Shown here one piece after another: positions 4,447 through 10,455 of a DNA stretch of 30,549 bases. Position numbers and translations under genes: made by a program. The notes beneath the pieces are model-generated. The model searched no databases. It worked only from the letters and a program-made list of their open reading frames with translations, and had not been told where the DNA came from. How positions within the stretch are numbered: the stretch's first letter is position 1; every line of letters starts with the position of its first letter. This DNA is from a virus: positions 1-30,549 of the IMG/VR virus record IMGVR_UViG_3300029286_000180; one strand, given 5' to 3'.

Positions 4447-5145
4447 CTAACCTTCTTTCTGCCTAATTAGGCGATTATTTATATTTTTTGTTACGTCTTT
4501 TCCTGTTTTTACGTCAAATACCTTAACAATTTCTATCATGTCGGCAGATGCCTTGCCATCTGTTGCCCAAGGTTCGTTAATCTTTGCGCCTTCAGGTATT
4601 CTAATTTTCGCCTCTAATGGATGATCTGAATAATTAACGGCACACCATGAACGTGAGGCAAAGTGGAAGCCGGGATGAGAACACATGACTCTTTCATCAT
4701 CTGCAAAGACTTCACCTTCACGGAGTTTATTAATCCCAACATTAAATTGATAATCATTGTTTTTTAGACCAATATCAAATCGTTTCCAGTAATAGTTGCC
4801 GACCTCAACACCCATTAGCTTGACCATATTTTGGGCTTCGGACAGGTCGGCTTCGGACAGGTTGGCTCTGGACAGGTTGGCTCCGGACAGGTTGGCTCTG
4901 GACAGGTCGGCTTTGGACAGGTTGGCTCTGGACAGGTTGGCTCTGGACAGGTTGGCACTGGACAGGTCGGCTCTGGACAGGTTGGCTTCGGACAGGTCGG
5001 CTTCGGACAGGTTGGCTCTGGACAGGTCGGCTCTGGACAGGTTGGCACCACTTTTAACCGCCGCTTCTACACACAACTTAAATGATTGAGTTTCCAGTGA
5101 AAAAATTACATTACCGTAAAATCGTGATTTAATTTCAAATAACAT
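4447..5145 (-). CDS. Pentapeptide-repeat protein with C-terminal domain
   Basis: The start at 5145 ([11 protein letters not shown]) follows AGAAAGGACTTACCG; a TTG-start extension to 5166 would run into the palindrome and is not preferred. After about 38 residues there are 14 consecutive A(N/D)LSx pentapeptides, which should form a square right-handed beta-helix. The remaining 125 or so residues form a separate domain with [20 protein letters not shown], resembling a C-terminal domain often fused to pentapeptide repeats in phage proteins. The role is unknown; gyrase protection, known for Qnr-type repeats, is not supported here. It is the first gene after a strong promoter and leads into the exonuclease and ERF genes. 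Confidence 0.85.
4461..4472 (-). promoter_or_regulatory. 12-bp palindrome abutting the exonuclease ribosome binding site
   Basis: GCCTAATTAGGC is a perfect palindrome within the last codons of the pentapeptide gene, followed on the minus strand by AGAAAGAAGG and the exonuclease ATG. The layout mimics the GCCCAATATTGGGC plus AGAAAGGA arrangement upstream of the pentapeptide gene, but the core differs (TAATTA). It could be a diverged operator or an RNA hairpin that affects translation. Confidence 0.45.
4836..5045. repeat. Tandem 15-bp array (14 units) encoding pentapeptides
   Basis: Units of the type GGACAGGTTGGCTCT are repeated about 14 times with few substitutions, mainly CTCT/TTCG and GTT/GTC changes. 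The uniformity at DNA level, including third positions, suggests recent expansion by slippage or unequal recombination. The array leaves frames open on both strands, and those extra frames are not genes. Confidence 0.9.
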
Positions 5146-5160
5146 CGGTAAGTCCTTTCT

Positions 5161-5211
5161 GCCCAATATTGGGCTTTTCTTCTAATATAGCATATTATAT
5201 TAGGAAGTCAA
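5161..5211 (-). promoter_or_regulatory. Leftward promoter with palindromic operator-like site
   Basis: On the minus strand TTGACT (5211-5206), a 16-base spacer and TATATT (5189-5184) form a good sigma70-type promoter. Nine bases after the -10 lies the perfect palindrome GCCCAATATTGGGC (5174-5161), so it would cover about +4 to +17 of the transcript. AGAAAGGA and the pentapeptide ATG follow. The -35 overlaps the TGA stop of the upstream gene. The same -10 plus palindrome combination occurs at 10634-10660 and 11833-11859. Confidence 0.75.
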
Positions 5212-8992: not shown

Positions 8993-9802
8993 TTATCCCT
9001 CGTAATATTTACTTGCTGATCTTAAAATAAGTTGAAGTTCTTTTTCTTCCATCACCGGTGAACAGGCAATGGCTTCTTTTCTTGCTTCACTTTCAATATA
9101 ACTCCACGGTACTTTTCTTTTAATCATTCCACAAACACGCTTGAATATATGGACATTTCTCATAGTTGAAGTACCATAAACACTATTAAATTTTAATTCT
9201 GATGATGTATGCGTTTCTAGTTTGTATCTTTTAGCAGACCATTGAGCAACTTTTTCCGGTGGAAACCAATACACAAGTTCTTTATAAGTGAATATGTCCC
9301 CTGAATAACTGTAAATATTTGTTAAAAATGGTTCATATTTCAAGTGTATATATCCAGGTACTCTTAAAACTCTAGGTAAATCATGCACCGATTGATCACT
9401 ATTTAACACCCTGATAATATTCTGTTGAAGTGGTTTAAATGCTTCCAGTGGTACGTCTTTGACAAACCAATAGCAATGGAAACGCCCAAGCGATGATTCA
9501 ACCACTAGAGAGGGTTTATATTCTAAAGCCTTTTCTAATGGCGCTCCGTCCAGATCGGCATAAACTGCCCTGACTTTTATCACGTTAGCAGCAGACCGGC
9601 CTTTTCCGTCTGTTTCATTAACACAAAAGAATATTCCAGCACCTTCACCGTTTAACCATGCAAGATTATCCGCCTCCACTTCCGTGAAAACATCAAAGTG
9701 AAAAATGCTCGTCAAATCTTTTCGTAACTTCTTATCGTCAAAAGTCTGTATTGTTATTTTACCAGGAAAGAAACTGAAAAAGTTAAAATTATTTATTTGC
9801 AT
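8993..9802 (-). CDS. RepB-type (AEP superfamily) DNA primase
   Basis: The 269-residue protein has the primase signature VRAVYADLDGAP (acidic pair Asp83 and Asp85) and SSLGRFHCYWFVKD (His109), followed by DQSVHDLPRVLRVPGYIHLK, which is a block I recognise from RepB-like and bifunctional phage and plasmid primases. The enzyme would make RNA or DNA primers during replication. The C-terminal 70 residues resemble the helical PriCT-type extension (WSYIESEARKEAIAC). It overlaps the DUF4373-like gene upstream by ten bases; the start has only a GGGGGTTATGT site. The helicase follows directly. Confidence 0.82.
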   Translation of the reverse strand: MQINNFNFFSFFPGKITIQTFDDKKLRKDLTSIFHFDVFTEVEADNLAWLNGEGAGIFFCVNETDGKGRSAANVIKVRAVYADLDGAPLEKALEYKPSLVVESSLGRFHCYWFVKDVPLEAFKPLQQNIIRVLNSDQSVHDLPRVLRVPGYIHLKYEPFLTNIYSYSGDIFTYKELVYWFPPEKVAQWSAKRYKLETHTSSELKFNSVYGTSTMRNVHIFKRVCGMIKRKVPWSYIESEARKEAIACSPVMEEKELQLILRSASKYYEG

Positions 9803-10290
9803 ACATAACCCCCACTACTAGTACTACTTATACTGGTGTAACTTTCCTTTCCTTTCCTTTCCTTTCCTTTGCTTGGATTTGCTACATTGCTTGAAGCATT
9901 TGCTTGTTTGCTTGAAGCATTTGCTCTAGTCTTTCCTCCCAAACTACCTGATATTGCACGTTTTATAGAAATATCCTGTCTTAATTGAATATTGCTCTCT
10001 ACACGGTTTGACCAAATATAGGTTCCATCTGACTGTAATAGTTCAGCCGGTGAAATTGCATATTGTATAATTTCAATTATTTGCTTGTTTGCTATAAGCA
10101 ATTGGTTGGAAAGTGATATAAATATATATTCTTTAAGAGGTATTTTATGAGTTGGTTCAGCGTGCAATAGTTCAACAATTCTCCAAAATACACCATAACC
10201 ATTTGCCCCATGTTTGCTTAATAGTGTTTGCATTTTTGGGTCAGCAGCTGCGTCAAAATCATGGGGAAAGTAAAAAGTATTAGCTTTCAT
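9793..10290 (-). CDS. DUF4373 (Lin1244-like) replication-associated protein
   Basis: The N-terminus FYFPHDFDAAADPKMQTLLS and HGANGYGVFWRIVELLHAEP match the Lin1244/Lin1753 N-terminal (DUF4373) family, common just upstream of replication genes in phages and mobile elements and built like a winged-helix origin binder. The C-terminal third is low-complexity and basic, with NASSKQANASSNVANPSKGK then ERKGKES encoded by a pentanucleotide repeat. Slippage there would change the frame of the last 20 or so residues. The start follows GGTGAAGGT. The leader contains a large folded element (10311-10455). DNA binding is expected from the family, not shown here. Confidence 0.8.
   Translation of the reverse strand: MKANTFYFPHDFDAAADPKMQTLLSKHGANGYGVFWRIVELLHAEPTHKIPLKEYIFISLSNQLLIANKQIIEIIQYAISPAELLQSDGTYIWSNRVESNIQLRQDISIKRAISGSLGGKTRANASSKQANASSNVANPSKGKERKGKESYTSISSTSSGGYVCK
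9843..9870. repeat. TTTCC pentanucleotide repeat, five full copies
   Basis: TTTCC occurs five times in a row at 9843-9867, followed by TTT. On the coding (minus) strand it is a GGAAA run read as KGKERKGKE. Unit length is not a multiple of three, so gain or loss of one unit shifts the frame. Confidence 0.9.
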
Positions 10291-10310
10291 TAATCATACC
10301 TTCACCAACA

Positions 10311-10455
10311 AAAACCCCCGCTAGTGGCGAACCCATACCTGGGAGGCATGGCACTAGCGAGGCTAATTGTTGGCTTTGATTTAATTTTAAATTGGTTTTT
10401 TAACATCGGGTTCGCTCCGTTAAAAACATACTATCACGGTTTAAAATTAAATCAA
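10311..10455 (-). ncRNA. Predicted pseudoknotted structured RNA or structured replication leader
   Basis: The gene-free stretch 10291-10470 contains nested inverted repeats. On the minus strand, a perfect 16-bp stem TTGATTTAATTTTAAA (10455-10440) pairs with 10391-10376; inside it an 8-bp stem TTTTTAAC/GTTAAAAA closes a 14-base loop with GCGAACCC. A second 8-bp stem CGCTAGTG/CACTAGCG (10359-10352 with 10326-10319) contains CCATGCCT-CCC-AGGTATGG, which pairs fully only if G-U is allowed, and that pair exists only on the minus strand. GGGTTCGC in this hairpin is complementary to the first loop. GGGG and a T5 run follow. It could be a riboregulator, an attenuator or an origin structure. Confidence 0.6.

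Follow-up and report, generated by a model that had tools for sequence, protein, structure and literature searches.

The DNA analyzed in this study, hereafter called the window, is an entire virus record of 30549 bases. Structural genes lie on its plus strand, and its minus strand carries a replication block. In addition to a Lin1244_N/DUF4373 replication-initiation protein, this block encodes a RepB-primase-like protein and a helicase (phrog_16). On the leftward transcript, a gap of 180 nt extends from the stop codon of a 50-amino-acid coiled-coil ORF to the start codon of the Lin1244 gene, and the element described here resides in this gap (Table 1). A Shine-Dalgarno (SD)-like site precedes the Lin1244 start codon, and such sites are found at 13 of the 31 ORFs of the window. 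Positions 4447-5166 encode a protein with tandem pentapeptide-like repeats (ANLSRADLS), as a result of which several frames stay open on both strands.

The Lin1244 gene also carries a repeat, (GGAAA)4-5, at positions 9843-9870 of the minus strand, which encodes KGKERKGKE after the N-terminal domain. Of 80 genes examined, 72 have a GGAAA repeat at this site. Among 53 distinct homologs that carry the motif, its Arg is encoded only by AGG (24% elsewhere) and its Gly only by GGA. Because these codons are invariant, the DNA itself seems to be conserved, and the repeats may be origin iterons within the initiator gene. The KGKERKGKE peptide had been used to collect part of the viral loci, which introduces a bias at the peptide level and not at the codon level. 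In a set collected without the peptide, KERKxKE occurs in 11 of 68 proteins and (GGAAA)3 or more in 7 of 68.

Table 1. Features of the region preceding the Lin1244 gene in the window
Feature	Position	Strand	Basis or remark
Lin1244_N / DUF4373 replication-initiation protein gene	9793..10290	-	PF14297 1.3e-10; phrog_2562 replication initiation protein 6.3e-19
Shine-Dalgarno-like GAAGG before Lin1244 start codon	10299..10303	-	sequence
U-rich tail (GUUUUUGUU) 3' of hairpin 2	10307..10315	-	last bases can pair with CCAACAA 10367-10373
Hairpin 2, terminator-like	10316..10362; arms CCTCGCTAGTG 10352-10362 / CACTAGCGGGG 10316-10326	-	11 bp, GC-rich
Kissing sequence a' (TGGGTTCGC) in hairpin 2 loop	10327..10335	-	abuts hairpin 2 3' arm
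Small competing hairpin CCATGCCT CCC AGGTATGG within hairpin 2 loop	10333..10351	-	MFE structure
Hairpin 1	arms 10418-10426 / 10397-10405, loop 10406-10417	-	9 bp including one G-U
Kissing sequence a (GCGAACCCG) in hairpin 1 loop	10407..10415	-	loop layout 2+9+1
Perfect 16-bp A+T-rich stem enclosing hairpin 1	10440-10455 / 10376-10391	-	no counterpart in relatives

Read along the minus strand, the order of parts is an arm of the 16-bp stem, hairpin 1, a linker of 34 nt, hairpin 2, GUUUUUGUU, GAAGG, and the AUG. The 12-nt loop of hairpin 1 reads GAGCGAACCCGA. Hairpin 2 includes one U-G pair that is possible on the minus strand only, and it could be extended outward by pairing between CCAACAA and UUGUUGG. 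The contact between the two loops comprises eight Watson-Crick pairs and one G-U pair. These parts bear out the original prediction, which had been made from the letters alone, with each of its repeats found at the coordinates given. The perfect 16-bp repeat that it named is present, as are the arms GTTAAAAA/TTTTTAAC (10397-10404 and 10419-10426), which can be refined to the 9-bp hairpin 1 by inclusion of a minus-strand G-U pair, and the arms CGCTAGTG/CACTAGCG (10319-10326 and 10352-10359), which belong to the 11-bp hairpin 2. It had also noted that the loops are complementary, and indeed GCGAACCC at 10327-10334 is complementary to GGGTTCGC at 10408-10415. Three bases of the full contact also belong to an 8-bp inner hairpin (CCAUGCCU/AGGUAUGG), and therefore both can form at once only with a contact shortened to 6 bp. 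On the plus strand, the 16-bp A+T-rich inverted repeat is followed by TTTTTATTTT. This repeat might serve as a pair of operators or as a weak terminator of rightward transcription.

Folding of the region yields MFE z scores of -5.6 for the minus strand and -5.0 for the plus strand relative to shuffled sequences. A descriptor that scores two hairpins plus their loop-loop pairing gives -45.2 for the window, and none of 2000 dinucleotide shuffles is as good (best value -36.8). When both stems are held fixed and only the loop letters are shuffled, the contact energy is reached in 15 of 20000 trials. The element is the top kissing-hairpin match on either strand of the window in one scan, and the region gives a terminator-like match with a U-tract. 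We regard an RNA structure at this site as quite likely. The descriptor was devised after the structure had been seen, and the strength of the case consequently rests on relatives.

Regions before Lin1244 genes were taken from other viral contigs and scored. Fourteen of 51 independent regions have an element whose contact spans 6 bp or more and that is equaled in no more than 1 of 200 shuffles, where fewer than one such region would be expected. When 41 loci were scanned on both strands, fitting elements lay 9-26 nt before the Lin1244 start codon, and chance matches of like score also turned up elsewhere. In addition, 3.9 Mb were searched for two hairpins that carry paired 7-mers and end in a T-rich tail. 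The score took no account of TAnnTTTG, the -7 box of Bacteroidota. Nevertheless, 89 of 110 occurrences of this box near matches (redundant loci included) start 8-16 nt before hairpin 1, which puts the 5' end of the predicted transcript at hairpin 1. The layout shared by many Bacteroidota phages, there too in front of replication-initiator genes, consists of TAnnTTTG, hairpin 1 at the start of the RNA, a linker, hairpin 2 that kisses hairpin 1 through about 7 bp, a U-tract, and an ATG at a conserved distance of 9-13 nt from the stem. Loci from collections of cellular genomes, L490 (Sphingobacterium sp.), L511, L516, and L479, also fit the descriptor. Other matches were set aside. Those in unrelated contigs (L612 and others) were judged to be due to chance, with many located in GC-rich coding DNA, and the same judgment was made for the matches fetched with covariance model R1 from 396 Bacteroidota genomes, which lacked kissing loops.

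Two classes that can be aligned are distinguished among the relatives. Class A elements have 7-nt hairpin loops, a conserved linker (GAACTTATTGCCCTTGA), and an outer terminator stem, GCCCU/AGGGC. In class B, hairpin 1 has 12 bp and a 10-nt loop of which 7 bases are paired (2+7+1), the linker contains the hairpin TTTAGA-GNAA-TCTAAA, and the 7-nt loop of hairpin 2 is fully paired. Loci chosen solely by their linker and promoter, and not by kissing, carry a complement of 7-9 nt in 8 of 8 class A cases and in 6 of 6 recognizable class B cases, with four further pattern matches left out as plainly unrelated. When loci were chosen solely by their class B initiator protein, the element was present in all of L620-L626, with a different allele in L621.

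The class B alignment contains eleven sequences, ten of them distinct, and 99.7% of its 339 pair cells form standard pairs. Two-sided changes are present in 14 pairs, compared to a mean of 6.3 for shuffled alignments, and no value this high was reached in 500 shuffles. Sliding the partner by a single column lowers pairing to less than 50%. Compensated pairs include four of the seven in the loop-loop helix and seven of the nine in hairpin 2. Many cells hold G-U pairs and none holds A-C, and therefore the structure is formed by the transcript strand. The loop alleles GUACGAA, GAGCGAA, GGACAAG, and GGACGAA are orthogonal, each with its own complement, and the loci L623 and L626 differ in little else than their two loops, which have changed together. 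Covariation is also seen in the nested stems of class A. The class A kissing helix was left out of the pair count since MAFFT misplaces the loop of one allele by a single base. Likewise, raw counts of G-U versus A-C among descriptor matches were not used as evidence because the search had allowed G-U pairs. The compensatory changes that the original prediction called for are thus found in other phages with the same layout and place, including changes in the loop-loop helix, and its proposal of a pseudoknotted RNA on the leftward transcript is favored.

Judged from sequence, the genes behind these leaders are initiators of unrelated N-terminal kinds. Predicted products include Lin1244_N proteins (L059, L080, L025, L083, L296, L026) and HTH_36/DnaD-like proteins that match replication-initiation PHROGs (L368, L356, L354, L337, L382), and at other loci an ORF of about 70 codons is followed by the initiator (L265, L246, L271, L065, L074). 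One phage contig, L062, has two elements with different loops, of which one precedes a helicase-methyltransferase gene and the other a Lin1244 gene. The former gene (L062 1501-3684) encodes 727 amino acids that correspond to an SNF2-like helicase fused to an N6/N4 DNA methyltransferase, and it has its own kissing leader. In another contig (L084 6762-9104), a helicase gene bears an intein-like insertion in its DExH motif (..VIDE-CFVGST...AVHN-CHALH..). At class B loci, inspection by eye without a family search reveals, immediately upstream of the leader, a gene for a small protein that resembles the DnaA C-terminal domain. Such genes lie at L265 6075-6467, L246 7099-7491, L296 9010-9372, L059 5497-5880, and other loci, and the protein is a possible partner or regulator.

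The DNA immediately before the start codons differs from that of other genes. The last 12 nt before the start codon of genes with the element are 70% T, and TTTT occurs in 21 of 23. In contrast, the corresponding positions of 251 other genes on the same contigs are 52% A and 26% T, with TTTT in only 18. This comparison used elements that had been filtered for T-rich tails, and 14 loci picked without the filter have the same tails. Because T-rich tails of this kind are unlike the start regions of other genes, hairpin 2 resembles an intrinsic terminator that sits immediately ahead of the gene.

The window shares several features of the class in that its element precedes an initiator gene on the transcript strand and combines two hairpins, a contact of at least 6 bp, and a GC-rich hairpin 2 with a U-tract. 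Its 2+9+1 loop layout resembles that of class B, with no evident sequence similarity beyond the loop. The window is assigned to the class by architecture and position, and not by sequence homology. Several of its details are divergent. The U-tract is short and could in part base-pair with an A-tract upstream of it, and 25 nt separate the stem from the start codon, versus 9-13 nt in relatives. No TAnnTTTG box is found 8-16 nt before hairpin 1. We treat this box as host-specific, belonging to the promoters of Bacteroidota and not defining for the RNA. The sole candidate promoter in the window, TTGATT-16-TAGTAT, was picked by eye, falls below the scan threshold, and would place the start inside hairpin 1. 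Relatives of the window were sought via its primase, helicase, and TerL proteins, and none with this region was found, so the covariation evidence comes from other lineages only. TerL relatives reach 90% identity, and their contigs yielded no Lin1244 gene. Before the genes of the nearest Lin1244 relatives (L004, L451-L454), no element is visible by eye, and a blastn search of the window region and two elements against phages gave nothing useful. Viral loci matching the arm pattern CGCTAGTG..CACTAGCG were not treated as homologs and were reused as background.

Our preferred interpretation, to which we assign a probability of roughly 55% in the absence of transcript data, is that the element is a kissing-hairpin transcription-attenuation leader of the replication-initiator transcript. 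The attenuator-like features noted in the original prediction are favored by the evidence overall. The sequences themselves show the stems, the loop-loop pairing with its compensation in relatives, the place before initiators, the promoter box where the RNA begins (in Bacteroidota phages only), and the U-tract. According to this model, hairpin 1 would fold first in the minus-strand leader. The GC-rich hairpin 2 and its U-tract would form next, as an intrinsic terminator close ahead of the initiator start codon, with the apical loop of hairpin 2 paired to the loop of hairpin 1. Terminated transcripts would be short, compact kissing-hairpin RNAs closed at both ends, and read-through by RNA polymerase would give the initiator mRNA. 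By holding the terminator in a defined fold, the contact may set the share of read-through and hence the supply of initiator. Termination, the effect of the contact on it, and tuning by an unknown factor are inferred. Candidates for such tuning could include a phage protein, with the DnaA-C-terminal-like product seen by eye at class B loci as an example, further copies of the RNA, or the translation of the gene upstream. Ribosomes near a terminator are known to suppress it (PMC4824070). Folding, without a systematic search, revealed no antiterminator pairing, and the folds accommodate all helices together. There is therefore no evident sign of a classical on/off switch. An antisense regulator is also unsupported among the relatives, since an antisense TAnnTTTG is present in 1 of 24 relatives versus 14% of background windows.

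Other explanations can account for some of these characteristics. The element could instead give rise to a stand-alone small RNA, in which case an abundant terminated transcript would act as a sponge, a protein decoy, or a trans regulator and its place before an initiator would be secondary. Its own promoter box, terminator, and compact fold would suit this role, as would the copy at L030:1758-1862, which has the element and terminator with no start codon after it. We consider this possible but doubtful, as in nearly all other copies the start codon of a replication operon follows at 9-13 nt, and the initiators involved are of different types. It has also been considered that the terminated leader RNA binds the leaders of other transcripts through its loops and represses the initiator, such that the alleles define plasmid-like compatibility groups. 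The loop pair would then be a self/non-self code by which initiators of co-infecting or co-resident phages with the same loops are repressed. Both proposals seem unlikely to us, even though the alleles are diverse, L062 carries two elements with different loops, and the near-identical pair L623/L626 differs in coordinated loop changes. The pairing is possible within one RNA, and stepwise compensatory drift with the remainder under purifying selection would also produce such alleles. If true, a code of this type would constitute a phage RNA incompatibility system without any antisense RNA.

The conserved spacing of 9-13 nt between stem and ATG in Bacteroidota phages would also be expected of a 5' UTR element whose fold shields the 5' end of the mRNA or serves as a dock for the ribosome, with the U-tract as part of the ribosome site. 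This explanation is unlikely, given that the start regions of other genes in the same phages are A-rich and not U-rich, and that the window has an SD site and a different spacing. Finally, the element could be a structured replication origin, for which the original prediction had left room, or a protein-binding DNA site. The inverted repeats do adjoin replication genes, and the window has the 16-bp A+T-rich repeat. However, the conserved pairs include G-U on one strand and no A-C, the promoter and terminator are arranged for transcription, and the 16-bp repeat is outside the common layout. A DNA element is thus not supported and is very improbable.

Rfam 15 has no match at gathering score to the window or to 26 relative loci, and permissive Rfam searches of the window, L265, and L368 returned weak matches only. 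One of these, the trpB motif (RF04312) for L265, scored 26.6 bits against a cut-off of 59 and was judged to be a chance match of a generic shape. The trpB motif shares a 5' hairpin and a 3' terminator hairpin with the element, but it has no match in the window, and its small loop leaves no room for a loop-loop helix. No description of such an element was found in the literature searched. Subscription journals were mostly outside this search, and a prior description is not excluded. A covarying loop-loop RNA that is absent from Rfam and lies before initiators of several protein families in many phage contigs points to a shared control of initiator supply, and it would also offer natural orthogonal kissing-terminator parts.

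RNA control of replication initiators is a classic theme of plasmid biology, and to our knowledge it has hardly been described for tailed phages. In ColE1, the hairpins of RNA I and RNA II interact through fully paired loops of about 7 nt that have diversified between lineages. This sense-antisense pairing is intermolecular and controls a primer, whereas the phage element is the leader of an initiator gene. The put-type antiterminator RNA of HK022 acts on RNA polymerase and suppresses later terminators. The leader of repC in pT181, like those of the pIP501 type, has an intrinsic terminator before the initiator gene and kissing hairpin loops, and it is driven by a countertranscript (PMC4878617). 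Its kissing partner is an antisense RNA, whereas the partner loop of the phage leader is in the same RNA and within the terminator itself. Moreover, an antiterminator competes with the pT181 terminator, whereas neither an antiterminator nor an antisense promoter was found in the phage leaders. In the rep leaders of IncI-alpha, IncB, IncK, and IncL/M plasmids, the loop of a 5' hairpin is paired to a downstream element immediately ahead of the initiator (PMC10724649, references 9, 10, 18 therein). The phage leader is unlike these examples in that the partner is the terminator loop and the leader ORFs are short, with no SD seen. In these plasmids, the partner lies next to the ribosome site and the pseudoknot activates translation, with a leader peptide and an antisense RNA also involved. 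With no antiterminator evident from folding and no support for an antisense promoter among the relatives, the phage leader appears to be of neither the pT181 type nor the IncI/IncL/M type, though its proposed job and its place are comparable to theirs.
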